DNA from: a virus
Strand: one strand, 5' to 3'
Virus record (IMG/VR): IMGVR_UViG_3300036832_000646
Location: 1-41,441 of that record
DNA: 41,441 nt
Position numbers and translations under genes: made by a program. The notes under the pieces are model-generated. The model had not been told where the DNA came from, ran no database searches, and saw only the letters and a program-made list of their open reading frames with translations. This document shows positions 3,153 through 41,441 of the stretch, in pieces; within the stretch, counting starts at the first letter, position 1; each line of letters opens with the position of its first letter.

Positions 3153-3328
3153 GCGACGCTGAGATGACGCTGCCCGAGGCGCTGGCCGAGATCGAGCGGC
3201 TGCGCACCAGCCTCGCCCGCTTAGCGGAGGCGCACGCTGTCGCGCTCGGCAAGGTAGGGCCGCAATTCGAGCCAGCCGACGAGCCGTTCACCGTGACCCA
3301 CAACGTCCCCGGCAACGCGCCGACCTAA
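3149..3328 (+). CDS. Hypothetical 59-residue protein
   Basis: ATG at 3149 overlaps the portal stop (ATGA) and TAA is at 3326-3328. The first half is a short helix (EMTLPEALAEIERLRTSLAR) suited to coiled-coil pairing; the rest is Pro-rich. Small coiled-coil proteins between portal and scaffold are common in podovirus head operons, but this one has no recognised family. Confidence 0.55.
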   Translation: MSDAEMTLPEALAEIERLRTSLARLAEAHAVALGKVGPQFEPADEPFTVTHNVPGNAPT

Positions 3329-3353
3329 CGCCCATCAACCAGGAGAACGTGCC

Positions 3354-3701
3354 ATGTCCGACATCCTCGACCGGCTGTTGGGGCAACCCCACACGACCAG
3401 CGAGCCGCCCGAAGTCACCGCCCAGCGCGAGGCCCTGATGGCCGACGTGGCGCTGGAGATCCGCCGCCTGCGCCAGATCGTCGGCGAGCGCGACGCCATC
3501 AAGGCGCTGGCGACCCAGATGCGCGCGGCACTCGATGCCTACGATGCCTCCCAGGAGAAGGCCGAGGCGCAGGCTGAGAAAGACGCGGCAGCGGCAGCCA
3601 AGAAGGCCGAGCAGGACGCCAAGAAGGCTGAGAAGGCCGAGGAAGCGCAGCACACGTCGCAACAGCATCCACAGCAGACGCAGAACCAACCGCACCGCTA
3701 A
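3354..3701 (+). CDS. Alanine/lysine-rich coiled-coil protein
   Basis: 115 residues preceded by AGGAGA about 7 bases before the ATG. A leading helical region (VALEIRRLRQIVGERDAIKALATQMRA) is followed by an almost pure Ala/Lys/Glu/Gln helix (EKDAAAAAKKAEQDAKKAEKAEE) and a Gln/His-rich tail. No catalytic motif is visible. It lies directly before the predicted scaffold, so it may be an auxiliary assembly protein; function is otherwise unknown. Confidence 0.65.
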   Translation: MSDILDRLLGQPHTTSEPPEVTAQREALMADVALEIRRLRQIVGERDAIKALATQMRAALDAYDASQEKAEAQAEKDAAAAAKKAEQDAKKAEKAEEAQHTSQQHPQQTQNQPHR

Positions 3702-3713
3702 TCAGGCCACACC

Positions 3714-4469
3714 ATGAGCGACACCGAGACGGCCGTCCCGCAGGACGCGTCCGAACCTGTCATCACCGGCAGCACTGAGGCACCCCCGCCGGCACCGGCA
3801 GAGACCGAAGCCGGCACTGAGACCGCGGCCGAGCAGGAGACCGAGGAACAACCGCGGCAACGGCGTGGCGACCGGCGTCTTGCGGTGCTGGCCGCGCAGG
3901 CTCGTGCGGCACAGGACCAACTGGCACGCCAAGAGGCTGAACTGTCGGAGCTCCGGCGACGTGTCGGCCCTATGCAGCCGGAGCAGCCGCAGATCCCCGC
4001 AGAGTGGCAGCCAGTGATCGAGCGGGAGGTCGAGGCCAGGACGGCCCAGCGCGCCGCTCAGGCGGCCCGTGAGGCCTTCCACGCCGCTGGACGGGCCGAA
4101 CATGCCGACTGGGCCGACAAGTGCCAGAGCCTCATCGACATGGGCGCAGATCCCCGCTTCGCCGAACTGCTGGTGGAGACCCAGGACGGCCACAAGGTCG
4201 CCGCCGCCCTTGCCGACGAGCCGGAGGAGCTCGAGCGGATCGCGCGCATCCAGAGCGACCGCGGCCGGGCCGTCGAGTTGGGTAAGTTCGCCGCCCGGCT
4301 GGAGAACAAGCCGCCGCCGCCGAGGCGGGCACAGGTAACGCGGACGCCAGCGCCGATCCGGCCGGTCAATGGCTCGGTGAACGTTGAGGCGGACCCGTAC
4401 CGGATGAACCCGCAAGAGGCCGTTGCCTATTACTCGAAGCAGGACATGGACAGCAGAAGGAGGCCGTGA
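3714..4469 (+). CDS. Predicted scaffolding protein
   Basis: 251 residues between portal and coat, the usual place for scaffold. The N-terminal 45 residues are acidic and Pro/Thr-rich, then come long charged helices (LAVLAAQARAAQDQLARQEAELSELRRRV) and a C-terminal PYRMNPQEAVAYYSKQDMDSRRRP ending in basic residues, as expected for a scaffold that touches coat with a basic helical tip. The assignment rests on composition and position, not on a conserved motif. It ends TGA overlapping the ATG of the next gene. Confidence 0.65.
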   Translation: MSDTETAVPQDASEPVITGSTEAPPPAPAETEAGTETAAEQETEEQPRQRRGDRRLAVLAAQARAAQDQLARQEAELSELRRRVGPMQPEQPQIPAEWQPVIEREVEARTAQRAAQAAREAFHAAGRAEHADWADKCQSLIDMGADPRFAELLVETQDGHKVAAALADEPEELERIARIQSDRGRAVELGKFAARLENKPPPPRRAQVTRTPAPIRPVNGSVNVEADPYRMNPQEAVAYYSKQDMDSRRRP

Positions 4470-22089: not shown

Positions 22090-22221
22090 TCAGAAGCAGG
22101 AACGTGTGCAGGTACGGTAGCCGCCGCCACCGTTGCAGGTCGTGGTGCAGCTCTGGTAGGCGCTGGCCACCTGCGCAGAGAGCGCGACAGCGATCAGTGC
22201 CAGAGCAAAGATAATCTTCAT
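22090..22221 (-). CDS. Secreted cysteine-rich micropeptide
   Basis: 43 residues. A clear signal peptide (MKIIFALALIAVALSAQVAS, ending VASA) leaves a mature part of about 22 residues with four cysteines in two similar halves: SCTTTC, a Gly run, then TCTRSC. SD AAGGA lies upstream of the ATG. Four cysteines in a mature peptide this short would allow two disulfides or metal binding in the periplasm. It lies between an RHH regulator and XhlA-like gene. No family recognised. Confidence 0.6.
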   Translation of the reverse strand: MKIIFALALIAVALSAQVASAYQSCTTTCNGGGGYRTCTRSCF

Positions 22222-22379: not shown

Positions 22380-22424
22380 GACTCGGATATGCTGCACATC
22401 TGGCACATAGTCAAGGATAATCCG

Positions 22425-24134
22425 ATGCCCATAAGCGTTCCGACGGCCGAGGAGTTCGAGGGGCTTAAGGCAACCGTCGAGGCGTTGCAGTCGGCGGCGC
22501 TCGAGCATGATCAGGCCATAGACGACCTGAACGCCCGCGTGGCGGCGCTGGAGCAGGACAGCGGCAGGCCAGACCGGCCTGACCGCCCCGACCCGCCCGA
22601 CCCAGGCGGGCCGCCAGTCGTCACAGTCCACATGGACGGCGTTGACTATGTGTATGATCAGGACGACGGCACTGACCTCGGCGACTACGTAGACCCGGAC
22701 GGCCGGTTCGTCATGTCCTGTGTGCGCGTGCGTTTCGCCGACTGCCCACTGGTGGTGGACTTCCGCGCCACCGCGGCCTGGTCCTGCGTCGTGTTCGAGT
22801 ATTCAGACCCACTCAATGGCAACTGCCCGAACCTGGCCTACACGGTGACAATCAAAGGCGAGACGATCGAGGTCAGCGATCACTGGGCCAATGCCAGCTG
22901 GCGTCGGCAGTCCGGGCCGTGGCCGCATCCGCTGACCCCGCTGGCCACGCTCTACGAGCGCAAGCTGCTGCCGCGCCACGACGGCGCCCTGGCGTTGGGC
23001 AAAGCGGGCAACCTCACGAATGTCCACGATGCCCCACCCATGTCGTTGTGCGGGTTCACCCCCGACATGCCCGCGACCGGCGGCAGGGCCGACATCGGCG
23101 TGCTCACCGGCTGGCAGGGCGAGTGGGCCTGCACCGAGGGGTCCGATATGCTGAAGACCGTCATCGTGCAAGGCGAGGCGAGCTTCAACTGGAAATTCCG
23201 CGACAAGGATACGGGCGCGATCTTCGATGCGATCAAGACGTATCCACAGGCCAGCTTGCACTGGGGAAACGGGCCGAGCGGTAACCCCCAACTGTACCAC
23301 GGCACCGGCTATCACCCCGGCCTCGACAGCGCGCATTCCCCAGCCTGCTACTATGTGCCGTTCGTGCTCACCGGCGACCCGTATTTCCTGGAATACCATC
23401 AGGGCGCGGTGATGTATCATTTCTGCGAAATCGCGCGGAACACCAGCACGGTCGTGGGCAGCGAGCAGATCAGAGGCGTGGCGTGGAGCCTCCGTTACTT
23501 GTTCCAGGCCGCGATCGCGACGCCGGATGACGTGCCATCGTGGATACTGTCCAAGAGCATCTTCGTGGACGAGCTCGAGCGCCAGCGTGGGCTGCTTGAT
23601 GCCCGGCAGCGCGATGGTTGGGTGTACCGGGATTTCGCCCACATCATCGACAGCTATGGCCGCTGGCAGCACGCTTGGTGGCAGAGCGACTATGCCACCG
23701 CGATCGTGGCGTGGATTTCGATGCACGACGATAGATGGGCGCAGCAACGGGACTGGATGGTCGAAGGGATCGCTGGCCGATCCGATCCGACCTCCGGCTG
23801 GTGCCCAGGCTATCCGACCAGCTACTGGACCAACACGACCAACAAAAATGACTGGTATCCTGAAGGGAGCTTCCGCAGCTGGGCCGAGGCGTGGGACTAC
23901 AATGCCCACAACGTCTACACCGACACGCCCGGCGGCGTGTGCCCGACGCTCGAGGCGACGCTGAGCAAGAACACCACCTACGACTATTTCAGTGCGATGA
24001 TGCATGCCCTGCGGTTGTCGGCGCAGGCCGGCAGCGAGCAGGCGTTGCCCGCGCTGGAGCGTCTCACTGGGCCGTGGGAGCAGGGCCTGATGCAGTATGG
24101 ATTTACCGAGTACAAGTACTGTGCGGATTCGTAA
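22425..24134 (+). CDS. Candidate glycan-active spike protein, alpha/alpha-toroid-like
   Basis: 569 residues from ATG 22425 behind AAGGA. The N-terminus is a coiled coil (EEFEGLKATVEALQSAALEH) ending in a repetitive RPDRPDRPDPPDPGGPP hinge. A beta region around residues 65-150 is followed by a large helical domain. HSPACYYVPFVLTGDPYFLEY, QIRGVAWSLRYLFQAA, YGRWQHAWWQSDYATAIVAW and AEAWDYNAHNVY recall the repeated helix pairs and aromatic clefts of (alpha/alpha)n polysaccharide lyases and hydrolases. A trimeric depolymerase or receptor-binding spike is inferred. Catalytic residues cannot be named from the sequence alone. Confidence 0.5.
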   Translation: MPISVPTAEEFEGLKATVEALQSAALEHDQAIDDLNARVAALEQDSGRPDRPDRPDPPDPGGPPVVTVHMDGVDYVYDQDDGTDLGDYVDPDGRFVMSCVRVRFADCPLVVDFRATAAWSCVVFEYSDPLNGNCPNLAYTVTIKGETIEVSDHWANASWRRQSGPWPHPLTPLATLYERKLLPRHDGALALGKAGNLTNVHDAPPMSLCGFTPDMPATGGRADIGVLTGWQGEWACTEGSDMLKTVIVQGEASFNWKFRDKDTGAIFDAIKTYPQASLHWGNGPSGNPQLYHGTGYHPGLDSAHSPACYYVPFVLTGDPYFLEYHQGAVMYHFCEIARNTSTVVGSEQIRGVAWSLRYLFQAAIATPDDVPSWILSKSIFVDELERQRGLLDARQRDGWVYRDFAHIIDSYGRWQHAWWQSDYATAIVAWISMHDDRWAQQRDWMVEGIAGRSDPTSGWCPGYPTSYWTNTTNKNDWYPEGSFRSWAEAWDYNAHNVYTDTPGGVCPTLEATLSKNTTYDYFSAMMHALRLSAQAGSEQALPALERLTGPWEQGLMQYGFTEYKYCADS

Positions 24135-24137
24135 CGA

Positions 24138-24602
24138 CTAGGGGAGCCACTTCCAGGTCCGTCTCGCCTGCACGTGACGTATGTGGTCAACACTCATCCC
24201 ATACTCGGCTGCCAGGGTTGCTGGCAGCATTTTGCCTTTAAGGCGGCGGATGCGCCTGACATCCGAGGGTCTGAGTCTCGCCAGCCATTGCTTGCTCCCT
24301 CGCGTAGAGCGTCCATGCGCAACGGTGTCCTCGCAGTTCTCTTTGCGCGTAGCCCATCTGAGATGACGAGGATTGACGCAAGTCCGTGTGCCGCAGGAAT
24401 GCGCTGCGTCGAGACGGCTTGTCGGCGGTGGGCCGTGCACTACCTCGCAGATGATACGATGCACAAGCCCGCTATAGCGGCCTTGCTGACTAACTCTACC
24501 GTATCCCTGAGTGGTAGCATATGGCCACAATAGGCACGCGTCCTGCTCTGTCTTCGCCGCCATTTCCAGGAAATCGCAGGCGGTCCCCCTTTTTGCTCTC
24601 AT
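24138..24602 (-). CDS. HNH homing-type endonuclease with C-terminal HTH
   Basis: 154 residues on the minus strand. The HNH_3-type core is plain: CLLWPYATTQGYGRV, GLVHRIICEVVHGPPP, AAHSCGTRTCVNPRHLRWAT and ENCEDTVAHGR. The two Cys-pairs and His/Asn/His residues for metal and catalysis are all kept. A C-terminal helix-turn-helix (MLPATLAAEYGMSVDHIRHV) likely adds DNA specificity. It lies antisense between two plus-strand genes, stopping four bases after the spike gene, which fits a mobile free-standing endonuclease. Confidence 0.8.
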   Translation of the reverse strand: MRAKRGTACDFLEMAAKTEQDACLLWPYATTQGYGRVSQQGRYSGLVHRIICEVVHGPPPTSRLDAAHSCGTRTCVNPRHLRWATRKENCEDTVAHGRSTRGSKQWLARLRPSDVRRIRRLKGKMLPATLAAEYGMSVDHIRHVQARRTWKWLP

Positions 24603-24625
24603 TCACAGGCTATAACAAAGGAGAC

Positions 24626-25171
24626 ATGACAATGCGACTGAAAATAGCTAGCGCGCTACTGGCTTTCTTGCCATCTGCTGCTATGGCACTTCCCCAGATT
24701 GGGGTCTCGGATACGCTTAATGTCGTTGGCAATGCTACCTTCGATGGTGTGAACGTGCTGTTCGCCACACCGTCAAACCTGGTGAGCGGCACCGGGGCCT
24801 ATGCGGCACTCGGCACATGCGTCAGTTGCGTGGTCGTCAACACCCCGCTGGACTATTCGCCGTTCACCAACATCTCGAACCTGTTCGTCGCCACCAACAA
24901 CGGGGTGACCGCCACCGTGTCGCTCACGTCTCAGGTCGATCCACCCACGGTGGTCGGCAATGATCTCTCGCTCAACGACACCGCGCTGCTCACGTTGACC
25001 GGCTTCGCGCCGACGTTTGGGACGCTGGAGTTGACGGTCAACCAGGCCACGGGCGTGGCCAGCGGGAGCTTCTCAGCGACCGCCCAGGGCGCTCCGGTGC
25101 CGGAGCCGTTTAGTCTCGCGATCCTGGGCGTGGGCCTGCTGGGCCTCGTCGCGGTGCGGCGCCGGGCGTGA
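24626..25171 (+). CDS. PEP-CTERM exported protein
   Basis: 181 residues, start after AAAGGAGAC. N-terminal signal peptide (MRLKIASALLAFLPSAAMA). The mature region of about 130 residues is Thr/Val/Asn/Gly-rich and beta-prone, with a CVSC pair. The C-terminus is a textbook PEP-CTERM sorting signal: VPEPFSLAILGVGLLG then a short spacer and RRRA. In bacteria such proteins are cut by an exosortase in the inner membrane and released to the surface or matrix. This is very unusual cargo for a phage. It is followed two bases later by a lipoprotein-like gene, suggesting a small envelope cassette. Confidence 0.82.
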   Translation: MTMRLKIASALLAFLPSAAMALPQIGVSDTLNVVGNATFDGVNVLFATPSNLVSGTGAYAALGTCVSCVVVNTPLDYSPFTNISNLFVATNNGVTATVSLTSQVDPPTVVGNDLSLNDTALLTLTGFAPTFGTLELTVNQATGVASGSFSATAQGAPVPEPFSLAILGVGLLGLVAVRRRA

Positions 25172-25172
25172 G

Positions 25173-25388
25173 GTGTGGCGCCGCTGGTTGCCACAAGATC
25201 AGACTGATTGGCTGCTGATCGCCATCATGCTGCTATCGACTGCGGTGTTGCTGTGGGGCTGTTCCACCGGCGGCGGCCGTTCGGACGGCAATCCTGTGCC
25301 TTGCGAGAGCGTCCTGGTGCTGGCCAGTCCAGGCAGCTACGTGGCCTGTCCCGGCGCGCCGCCGCTGCTGGATGCCCGCCCCCATTAG
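25173..25388 (+). CDS. Lipoprotein-like or membrane-anchored small protein
   Basis: 71 residues from GTG 25173, two bases after the PEP-CTERM stop. An N-terminal hydrophobic segment (WLLIAIMLLSTAVLLWGCS) ends in a lipobox-like LWGC. A Gly/Pro-rich tail with two more cysteines (VPCESVLVL, YVACPGAPP) follows. It might be an outer-membrane lipoprotein such as an o-spanin, but the tail is not clearly spanin-like. Confidence 0.5.
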   Translation: MWRRWLPQDQTDWLLIAIMLLSTAVLLWGCSTGGGRSDGNPVPCESVLVLASPGSYVACPGAPPLLDARPH

Positions 25389-25486: not shown

Positions 25487-25504
25487 CTAAAATACCCCCC
25501 TCAG

Positions 25505-25532
25505 CCCCCGCTCCCAGGCGGGGGTTTTCTTT
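25505..25532 (+). terminator. Rho-independent terminator
   Basis: CCCCCGC (25505-25511), a six-base loop, GCGGGGG (25518-25524) and then TTTTCTTT. A strong GC stem with a T tract on the plus strand ends the plus-strand block before the convergent minus-strand early operon. Confidence 0.85.
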
Positions 25533-28385: not shown

Positions 28386-28766
28386 CTAGGCGCTGAGCAA
28401 GCGACGATTGAGTGGGCGGCGCGGACGCTCCGAGGGTTGGCTTTCCGTGACCTGCGTGGCCATCATGCGCAGGTGGATGCCCTGGAGTTCTTTGGAGAGG
28501 CGGCGATAGAGCGTGATGAGGGCGATCTCATCTTCGCTCTCGAGCAACAACTGATCGTCTGGTGTCGGCGCGCCTAATAATTCCGAGGGCTTGATACCGA
28601 GAACGCGGGCCAATTCGACCAGGTTGCTGGTCTTTATACCTGTGCCGCCGCCGCCACCTTCCCATTGCGCGACGGCGCTCTTGTTAACGCCTAGGAGTTC
28701 AGCCAAGGCGCGCTGTGTAATGCCCACTCGCTGACGCGCGGCGCGAATCCGATCACCGATGTTCAC
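28386..28766 (-). CDS. CI-like repressor (XRE family, no peptidase domain)
   Basis: 126 residues from GTG 28766. An XRE helix-turn-helix occupies residues about 3-62: IGDRIRAARQRVGITQRALA, ELLGVNKSAVAQWEGG, then NLVELARVLGIKPSELL. The C-terminal part is short and helical (ALITLYRRLSKELQGIHLRM) with a basic tail. There is no LexA/CI Ser-Lys peptidase domain, so induction by RecA self-cleavage is not expected. Divergent from the Cro-like gene across an 81-bp operator region; it probably maintains lysogeny. Confidence 0.78.
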   Translation of the reverse strand: MNIGDRIRAARQRVGITQRALAELLGVNKSAVAQWEGGGGGTGIKTSNLVELARVLGIKPSELLGAPTPDDQLLLESEDEIALITLYRRLSKELQGIHLRMMATQVTESQPSERPRRPLNRRLLSA

Positions 28767-28808
28767 GCCACTAAGGTGGCTTAGCTGCGCGCCTTCCGCA
28801 GTAAGCAA
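28767..28808 (-). promoter_or_regulatory. Predicted repressor-gene promoter with operator half-sites
   Basis: On the minus strand TTGCTT (28808-28803) and TAAGCC (28783-28778), spacing 19, upstream of the GTG at 28766. The segment holds CTAAG-GTGG-CTTAG (28771-28784) and AAGC....GCTT (28803-28814), variants of the GCTTAG/CTAAGC half-sites seen in PL and PR. This suits autoregulation by CI or repression by Cro. Weaker evidence than PL and PR. Confidence 0.4.
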
Positions 28809-28812
28809 AGGC

Positions 28813-28841
28813 TTGCCAGCCAGGCTTAGTGCTGCTAAGCG
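28813..28841 (+). promoter_or_regulatory. Predicted PR promoter with CI-type operator
   Basis: TTGCCA (28813-28818), a 17-base spacer and TAAGCG (28836-28841). The perfect inverted repeat GCTTAG-TGCTG-CTAAGC lies at 28824-28840. Offsets from the -35 are identical to PL. Transcription would begin about 28848, on or next to the ATG of the Cro-like gene, giving a leaderless or nearly leaderless mRNA. Confidence 0.6.
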
Positions 28842-28847
28842 TAGGCC

Positions 28848-29054
28848 ATGCGCGATCAATGCCTCGACCGCCTCATGCAGATCCGCGGCGCGACCAAGCG
28901 TCTGGCCGAGGGTTTGGGCATCTCGACTGCTGCCGTGTCGCAGTGGGAACGGGTGCCGCGTGACCGCGTGGTGCAGGTTGCTGCCATCCTTGGTGTGCGT
29001 CCCGAAGACCTGAGGCCAGACCTCTACACATCCGAACCAGCCGAGGCGGCGTAG
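28848..29054 (+). CDS. Cro-like / YdaS-type DNA-binding protein
   Basis: 68 residues from ATG 28848; ATG 28875 is an alternative. HTH region: GATKRLAEGLGISTAAVSQW then ERVPRDRVVQVAAILGV and the typical ending PEDLRPDLY of YdaS/Cro proteins. Divergent from CI. It would favour the lytic path by competing at the shared operators. No Shine-Dalgarno is visible before either ATG, in line with leaderless translation. Confidence 0.75.
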   Translation: MRDQCLDRLMQIRGATKRLAEGLGISTAAVSQWERVPRDRVVQVAAILGVRPEDLRPDLYTSEPAEAA

Positions 29055-29180
29055 CCATGCCGCGCCAGCCTGCCAACGCCACAGCCATCCTTGCCAGCAT
29101 GACAGAGCCACGACGCTGACGTGACCGGCGCGTGTCGCCCAGGGGAAACGGGCACGCGCGCCAAACCGGGGAAAGAAACC

Positions 29181-29582
29181 ATGGCGCATTATCCACAGGC
29201 AGCCAGCCGCAGGGGGGAGAAGCCCGCCCCGGCGGAAATGCGCGCGATCCTGCACCTGGCGGCCGAGCCGATCCGCCCCTGCGACAACGTCAAAAGCCTA
29301 ATCGCCAGGGCGGCCCAGACGCTCGGCCTGACGTACCGACACGCCAAACGCATTTGGTACTGCGAGGAGGATCGCCGCCTCAGGACCGAGGAGGTGGCCC
29401 GACTACGCGAGGAACGACAACGGCTGCTGCTGGCCAAGGAGCAGCGCCTCGAGCGCGAGCTCGCTGAACTGCGCACCCTCCTCCACTACGCGGAGCTACG
29501 GCATGCTGCGGCACTGGCTGGCCAGCGTTCGGCTGTGGCTGAGGGGTCTGTGGCTGCGGTTCCTGCGGTGGGCGCTCCGTGA
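29181..29582 (+). CDS. Helix-turn-helix / coiled-coil protein
   Basis: 133 residues from ATG 29181 with GGGGAAAG upstream. A possible HTH (NVKSLIARAAQTLGLTYRHA, KRIWYCEEDRR) is followed by a long Arg/Glu coiled coil (RLREERQRLLLAKEQRLERE) and an Ala/Val tail. Early rightward gene before the GcrA-like gene; likely DNA-binding. The 126-bp space before it (29055-29180) holds only a doubtful 20-codon frame (29057-29119). Confidence 0.55.
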   Translation: MAHYPQAASRRGEKPAPAEMRAILHLAAEPIRPCDNVKSLIARAAQTLGLTYRHAKRIWYCEEDRRLRTEEVARLREERQRLLLAKEQRLERELAELRTLLHYAELRHAAALAGQRSAVAEGSVAAVPAVGAP

Positions 29583-29989
29583 CCCCGGCCGCGGCCTGGA
29601 TGACCGATGAGGCCGTGGCGTTGGCCCGCGTGCTCTGGGACGAGGGCGTGGTGGCGTCCGCCATCGCGCAGCGCATTGGCGTCACCAAGGACACGTTGCT
29701 GGGCTTAGTGCATCGCCGTGGCTGGCCGGCGCGGCCGTCGCCGATCGGCGTGCGCAAGGCGCCCCTCAAGCCACCGCCCAAGCCACAGCCCGACCTCAAG
29801 GTGGCCTGCAAGCCGCAGCCGCTGGCGGTGCCCACGCCGGCGTTCCGGACGTGCCAATGGATCTCTGGCTCGGACCGCCGCACCTGGACGATGTGCGGTG
29901 CCCCGGCGGTCAAAGGCGCCTGGTGCGAGGCGTGCTACCGCCGCGTCTACGTCCGGCCGCCGCGCTGGGAACGGCTGGAGGCGGCATGA
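29579..29989 (+). CDS. GcrA-like cell-cycle regulator
   Basis: 136 residues, GTG 29579 overlapping the previous stop; ATG 29600 is an alternative. The N-terminus has the Gcr[44 protein letters not shown] then GW. A Pro/Lys-rich linker leads to the C-terminal module [20 protein letters not shown]...[10 protein letters not shown], equivalent to the CxWP...CG...YC..H region of GcrA. In Alphaproteobacteria GcrA binds sigma-70 and promoters methylated at GANTC by CcrM. A phage copy could redirect host transcription. Downstream methyltransferases make this link suggestive. Confidence 0.8.
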
Positions 29990-40921: not shown

Positions 40922-41079
40922 GCCGCAGCCGGCTTATCGCCTGGGGTGTCGCCCTGACTGGGGCGCAACTTGCCGCAGTCGTTCATTTGTTCACCCAGCA
41001 TGAGTTGAAGCGCGTGCTCCTACTGAAGGCAGTAAATAACCGGAAGGTGGCTCGTTTGATCAGGCGGGGGACGAGATGA
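40918..41079 (+). CDS. Small membrane-associated protein after terminase
   Basis: 53 residues from GTG 40918, overlapping the terL stop (GTGA); ATG 40906 is the alternative. One hydrophobic helix (LIAWGVALTGAQLAAVVHLF) is followed by a basic tail (RVLLLKAVNNRKVARLIRRG). Its TGA overlaps the next ATG. Could be a small holin-like or inner-membrane peptide; no family recognised. Confidence 0.5.
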   Translation: MSRSRLIAWGVALTGAQLAAVVHLFTQHELKRVLLLKAVNNRKVARLIRRGTR

Positions 41080-41441
41080 GCGGCACAACCAAAACCGAAT
41101 ACCAGGTGCAGCGGTTCGGCGGCTCGACCATGCCGGATGACCAGGCGACCGCCCGCTGGCTGAACGACCGCGCTGCCGAGGGGTGGGTGCTGCTCACGGT
41201 GGATGCCGGCGTCGGCTACTTCACACGCACCGCTGCCGCTCCCGCCAACATCTCGGTGCCGCACGTCAGCCAGACCGGCAACGTGCTGCACTGCACGATG
41301 GGCGAATGGAGCCACGAACCGACCTCGTATGCCTACCAGTGGCAGGGTGATGGCGAGGATGTCGGCACTAATTCGGCCGACTACACGCGCACACCGGGCG
41401 ATGTGGGCAAGACCGCGACCTGCATCGTCACCGCGTACAAT
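41076..41441 (+). CDS. DUF4177-like plus Ig-like domain protein, N-terminal part
   Basis: ATG 41076 overlaps the previous stop. The first 45 residues (EYQVQRFGG, ARWLNDRAAEGWVLLTVDAG) resemble DUF4177, a small fold with an AEGW motif. An Ig-like domain starts at about residue 55 (ISVPHVSQTGNVLHCTMGEW). The frame leaves the window and continues at bases 3-194, where the same Ig sequence is repeated. Total about 138 residues. Likely a surface-exposed virion or appendage protein. Confidence 0.72.
   Translation, partial: MSGTTKTEYQVQRFGGSTMPDDQATARWLNDRAAEGWVLLTVDAGVGYFTRTAAAPANISVPHVSQTGNVLHCTMGEWSHEPTSYAYQWQGDGEDVGTNSADYTRTPGDVGKTATCIVTAYN
41299..41441. repeat. Terminal redundancy, right copy
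   Basis: Matches bases 1-143 with differences at 41425, 41436 and 41437. Bases beyond about 41424 are less trustworthy than the left copy, because there the left copy gives the smoother protein end (TVTASNATGST). Confidence 0.9.

Follow-up and report, generated by a model that had tools for sequence, protein, structure and literature searches.

The window analysed here is the whole IMG/VR record, a 41,441-nucleotide stretch of DNA from a soil phage. Its ends (positions 1–143 and 41299–41441) form a 143-bp direct repeat with three mismatches, and the gene starting at 41076 crosses the end join; the record is classed as linear, and we consider it close to a complete circular map. Genes for P22-like portal, coat, scaffold, head-closure and ejection proteins are present, with matches to P22-type families (phrog_156, 4.5e-117; phrog_283, 1.5e-68; DNA ejection proteins). 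On the strength of its P22-type portal, coat and ejection proteins, we assign the window to a P22-like podovirus. Its nearest cultured relatives are remote, the portal being 43% identical to that of Pseudomonas phage PAE2 and 40% to that of Acetobacter phage phiAX1. A gene for a CI-like repressor lies at 28386–29189.

At the end of the late arm, the window carries a gene for a PEP-CTERM protein (Table 1). The first-pass annotation had drawn the open reading frame (ORF) from 24626 to 25171. Its strand (+) and stop codon (25169–25171) hold, and its start probably does not: the Shine-Dalgarno sequence stands 8 nt from ATG 24632 and 2 nt from ATG 24626. Because the former spacing fits better, the real start is probably ATG 24632; the ATG two codons earlier could also serve, though its spacing is poor. 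The coding score of the gene is 40.8.

Table 1. Features at the PEP-CTERM locus of the window
Feature	Position	Strand	Evidence
Last late gene before the PEP unit, 581 aa, no family	22389..24134	+	65% identical homologue in G005
HNH endonuclease gene, antisense, between PEP-CTERM gene and late operon	24138..24602	-	PF13392 1.2e-9; phrog_59 1.4e-25
Terminator-like hairpin after the 581-aa gene, within the antisense HNH gene	24208..24228	+	terminator search
Shine-Dalgarno AGGAG	24619..24623	+	read in sequence; similar site upstream of A-family relatives
PEP-CTERM protein gene, 179 aa	24632..25171	+	ORF, Pfam/TIGRFAM match, coding score, dN/dS
Sec signal peptide, residues 1–19, predicted cut between AMA and LP	24632..24688	+	sequence features by eye, hydropathy
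Exported domain, predicted all-beta	24689..25093	+	alignments; AlphaFold2
CVSC (C63, C66)	24818..24829	+	alignments
PEP-CTERM tail, residues 155–178: VPEP, hydrophobic helix, basic cluster	25094..25165	+	PF07589, TIGR02595
Doubtful small ORF, one TM segment and Cys (LLWGC), possible lipoprotein	25173..25388	+	ORF, coding score
Intrinsic terminator ending the PEP unit, at convergent junction with leftward ERF operon	25503..25526	+	terminator search

The protein begins with MRLKIASALLAFLPSAAMA, followed after the predicted cut by LPQ..., its C-terminal tail reads ...GAPVPEPFSLAILGVGLLGLVAVRRRA, and its C-terminal end is VPEPFSLAILGVGLLGLVAVRRRA. The tail scores 25.0 bits against PF07589 (E 1.9e-5; Pfam cut-off 20.7) and 17.2 bits against TIGR02595 (cut-off 16). 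The hydropathy maximum of the protein falls in the tail helix (residues 159–176), and among the ends the signal peptide ranks second. The signal peptide and PEP-CTERM tail read earlier from the letters are thus upheld, the tail by both curated cut-offs. These features are shared with the PEP-CTERM/EpsH (exosortase) system (TIGR02595/PF07589; Haft 2006, PMC1569441), in which a signal peptide, PEP motif, hydrophobic helix and basic end likewise frame a novel exported domain.

The exported domain contains a conserved motif, TLTGFxPTxG...NQATGxxSGSFS. Its second AlphaFold2 model, used in place of a poor first model (pLDDT 43.7), is all-beta with a C-terminal helix and has a mean pLDDT of 72.7, with 80–86 in the core. 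A Foldseek search of the PDB with this model returned no match below E 0.07, and no solved structure is similar. A likeness to herpesvirus UL4 (Foldseek, E ~2e-3, TM ~0.34) was dismissed as chance beta similarity. The residues C63 and C66 are invariant in all 12 aligned phage members and missing from five chromosomal homologues; these alignments mark the cysteine pair as a feature of the phage branch.

The small ORF behind the gene had been read as the lipoprotein half of a two-gene envelope cassette, a proposal that now looks weak. It starts with GTG one base past the PEP-CTERM stop, with no visible ribosome-binding site, its coding score is 7.5 against 40.8 for the PEP-CTERM gene, its lipobox (LLWGC) is non-canonical, and it is not conserved beside the PEP-CTERM gene in the nearest relatives. 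A small ORF of contig L126 (5317–5514), directly upstream of that phage's PEP-CTERM gene, has a well-formed lipobox (VLTGC) and cysteines in a similar arrangement; given this counterpart, the window ORF may be a real lipoprotein-like partner. The two terminator-like features of Table 1 belong to four such sites found against 2.4 expected by chance. The 581-aa protein has a coiled-coil-like start and a Pro-rich linker, with a further homologue (30%) in G028, and is possibly a receptor-binding or tailspike protein.

Six other IMG/VR phage contigs encode the window protein at 71–73% overall identity, and further P22-like contigs encode more distant members of this A family (40–54%), with two paralogues each in L183 and L220. 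Among the window copy and the six closer ones, all 21 pairwise dN/dS values lie between 0.11 and 0.36, and the exported domain is conserved most, the signal peptide and tail less. The dN/dS values point to strong purifying selection across diverged phages, and with the six further copies they indicate that the ORF is not a chance one. The sites of the gene are of at least three kinds. In the window and G003 it closes the late arm at a convergent junction, in G005 and G006 it stands near terminase where the late arm starts, and in G002 and G004 it immediately follows a capsid-like gene. Such a pattern is that of mobile cargo maintained by selection.

Two further explanations were weighed. The product could be a virion-associated protein that ends on phage particles or lysis debris, as its place behind the capsid-like gene in G002 and G004 might suggest; PEP-CTERM genes also adjoin the portal gene in G016, G024 and G030. 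The signal peptide and TM tail make assembly in the cytoplasm unlikely, however, and the gene's position differs among phages, so that we regard a virion role as very improbable. Alternatively, the gene could be a neutral captured host gene or contamination, since chromosomal relatives exist and host DNA may account for some contigs of our motif scan. Against this, phage genes border it left and right in the window as in its relatives, selection is strong across diverged phages, and independent PEP-CTERM families recur; this explanation is hardly tenable. Bacterial contamination, which the first-pass annotation had named among the findings that would undo its claim, was rejected on the conserved phage context, and the gene is a genuine phage gene.

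The PEP motif itself is unevenly preserved. Its E-P is invariant in 12/12 aligned A-family members; its first proline has given way to serine in G004 (SEP) and to alanine in G005 and the L183 copy at 3259–3801 (AEP), in which the hydrophobic and basic tail is retained, and TIGR02595 finds no match in G004 or G005. This erosion with a kept tail would suit an exosortase-independent membrane-anchored helper, whose signal peptide and C-terminal TM tail would do no more than hold a periplasmic domain against the inner membrane, where it might act in lysis or keep DNA from entering; the amidase and small one-TM proteins among the neighbours would suit it too. Such a helper is nevertheless improbable, because E-P is invariant, the other PEP-CTERM genes of the group exceed the PF07589 cut-off with the same tail on unrelated N-terminal domains, and homologues reside in exosortase-positive genomes.

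Beyond what the first-pass annotation had seen, unrelated PEP-CTERM genes recur across this P22-like phage group. Among 50 contigs gathered through similarity to the window's coat protein (P22-like capsid), PF07589 exceeds its cut-off in nine, two of which (G040 and G044) look like one phage, and in 6/14 of those of at least 30 kb. The PEP-CTERM proteins of the nine are mostly non-homologous, comprising type B (ATVILSFGQ...), type C (ATLQLAADFGG...) and two others, and their genes usually lie between terminase and portal. By comparison, PF07589 was found in 0/8 contigs of the phiAX1-like sister group, a small control set in which the control query also matched nowhere. In 50,697 phage records, tblastn with types A, B and C gave no match, nor did type A among plasmids. 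A DNA-pattern scan for VPEPxxLALLG matched at least 120 viral stretches, most of them ORFs with a signal peptide and tail; this set is not random, and part may be host DNA. PEP-CTERM genes run in the same direction as TerL in 35/35 cases, portal in 15/16 and MCP in 15/16, against a background of 83% same-strand neighbours. Tight operon packing was discarded as proof of late expression: the gaps are no tighter than background, with a median upstream gap of 75 nt. We tentatively consider that a lineage of soil podoviruses has time and again taken up unrelated PEP-CTERM proteins, in some contigs two, in its late or lysis region, free of host sigma54 control, so as to exploit the host exosortase during lytic infection, as a late module for taking over matrix or envelope in which the tag and not the cargo is in common; this is possible, though we would not expect it on balance.

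The neighbours of these genes also recur. In 35/38 cases, a small, conserved one-TM protein is encoded no more than two genes away from a PEP-CTERM gene, usually one of type B; the small protein has 60–80 aa, ends in ...CLxxx, belongs to no family and is represented by L120 5301–5510, with roughly 25 distinct relatives. The PEP-CTERM gene of G003 and that of G023 stand just downstream of a BPSL0067/Tae2-like amidase gene. This relative of type VI effectors (PDB 6WIN) is encoded immediately upstream of PEP-CTERM genes at L112 13344–13718 (-) and L120 4912–5304, and is a probable lysis enzyme or endolysin. Two PEP-CTERM paralogues share a contig in L183 (1223–1759 and 3259–3801) and in L227 (6243–6974 and the next gene).

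No exosortase was found in the 51 phage records searched (50 virus records and the window), so any sorting must rely on a host exosortase. A genome scan with the A1 patterns found no relatives; chromosomal relatives emerged only with a 12-row profile, which identified full-length homologues (E 2e-17 to 1e-14) in three of 385 alphaproteobacterial genomes (L262, L263 and L264). These proteins share the domain and tail over their full length and differ from the phage proteins in lacking the CxxC, in their sigma54-like promoters and in their housekeeping-gene surroundings; they form tandem pairs in 2/3 genomes. All three genomes encode an exosortase. An exosortase is also present in 17/25 genomes with any A2 profile match, as against 52/385 overall, a figure that partly restates the association of PEP-CTERM with exosortase, as most of the weaker matches fall in the tail.

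The first-pass annotation had taken the gene to imply an exosortase in the host. The homologue-bearing genomes and those with related prophages support this for hosts of such a kind; for assigning the window's own host, capsid matches were too remote, at 46–53% identity for the closest prophages, which lie in Pseudoduganella, a Caulobacterales MAG and other proteobacterial genomes. Among the genomes with related-capsid prophages, 3/5 encode an exosortase, and G396 is positive too; both alphaproteobacterial genomes whose prophage coat gene is about 50% identical to the window's are positive, G396 being the sole independent draw. GcrA-like regulators encoded near several PEP-CTERM genes, with scores below the Pfam cut-off, would agree with an alphaproteobacterial host.

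Regulation separates the chromosomal from most phage copies. A sigma54-like site scoring 9/10 stands 48–81 nt upstream of each of the five chromosomal homologues, in agreement with the control of a PEP-CTERM gene by RpoN in a floc-former (PMC9850573). The window gene has no sigma54 promoter (best match 8/10 at 24532), and such matches number 59 over the window against 59.0 expected; no clear promoter of its own was found, and a terminator is present. Sigma54-like sites of at least 9/10 precede 10/110 viral-contig PEP-CTERM genes and 0/2036 other genes (Fisher 8e-14), at a threshold set after a first look and with most of the ten contigs having no gene that the label set marks as phage. The sites of this minority lie 46–67 nt upstream (L165, L195, L201, L234 and others). 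The site is missing from the window gene and from the majority of the other phage copies, so that most phage copies have kept the sorting tag without the host promoter.

These observations weigh on the earlier proposal of a role in lysogeny. As a lysogenic-conversion moron, the gene would be expressed from a repressed genome, integrated or episomal, and its product would alter or coat the surface and block superinfection or change the matrix. Like phage morons and conversion genes, it is an accessory gene of variable position with a surface-directed product, and in the window its layout is moron-like, with a terminator-like hairpin on one side and a terminator on the other where the late and early arms converge; moreover, the sigma54-like sites suggest that some PEP-CTERM genes have independent promoters of host type, and the CI-like repressor gene keeps lysogeny possible. 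Unlike morons, these genes mostly run in the late direction, in phages without a detected tyrosine integrase, no clear promoter could be assigned to the window copy itself, and the A-family genes of G001–G005 start within about 16 nt of the gene before. The tyrosine integrase PF00589 exceeds its cut-off in 0/14 PEP-positive contigs (the window and 13 relatives) and in 3/8 PEP-negative relatives (Fisher p 0.036, post hoc), a comparison in which PEP-positive G016 has a sub-threshold match and absence is not proof because several contigs are fragments. Since no integrase exceeds the cut-off and the relatives' copies point in the late direction and adjoin genes for capsid, terminase/portal or amidase, lysogenic conversion is the weaker reading and seems unlikely.

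We therefore lean, by a narrow margin over even, towards a phage cargo gene for a host-exosortase-sorted protein that alters the envelope or matrix, most likely in late infection; the gene would ultimately stem from an alphaproteobacterial lineage with exosortase. What we infer is that the host exosortase processes the protein, when the gene is expressed, what the protein does at the surface, and the host. Counted against this reading are the antisense HNH gene and hairpin that part the window gene, for which no promoter was found, from the late operon, the eroded PEP motifs of G004, G005 and L183, the CI-like repressor gene and the median upstream gap. In the proposed mechanism, the protein would be exported by Sec in the infected cell and held in the inner membrane by its tail, which the host exosortase would recognise and cut at the PEP motif; the processed protein would then be handed to the cell surface or exopolysaccharide matrix. 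The change could favour the phage by binding or retaining EPS, by aiding progeny release or by blocking further adsorption. An effect on the matrix is plausible because bacteria overexpressing the PEP-CTERM protein PepA release less EPS and have more bound polymers (PMC9850573). The window protein resembles this flocculation-associated protein weakly and mostly at the C-terminus, scoring 33.3 bits against NF033554 (type B phage proteins, 40–46), below the cut-off of 80 bits.

Relative to the PEP-CTERM/EpsH system, the present case differs in being phage-encoded without an exosortase, in lacking the sigma54 promoter of the chromosomal homologues at the window gene, and in its partly eroded PEP motif. 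The functions of exosortase substrates are generally unknown. In our literature search for PEP-CTERM or exosortase together with phages, prophages or viromes, no title or abstract pointed to a paper on phage-encoded PEP-CTERM proteins. These phages probably use the host's sorting machinery to change the envelope or matrix of infected cells. If selection does maintain several unrelated substrates in phages, the compartment that exosortase serves, surface or matrix, would matter in infection, the exosortase and matrix would form a testable phage–host battleground, and PEP-CTERM genes could serve as markers assigning uncultured soil phages to exosortase-bearing hosts.

Two further features of the window were recorded. 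Its tail-region genes are duplicated in two sets, 10501–11289/11289–12146 and 8928–10022/14237–15715 (a phrog_26190 pair and a phrog_2448 pair). In addition, positions 22090–22221 (-) encode a tiny secreted Cys-rich peptide (...AYQSCTTTCNGGGGYRTCTRSCF) that adjoins small TM genes and is 79% identical to that of G002 29852–29989 (-).
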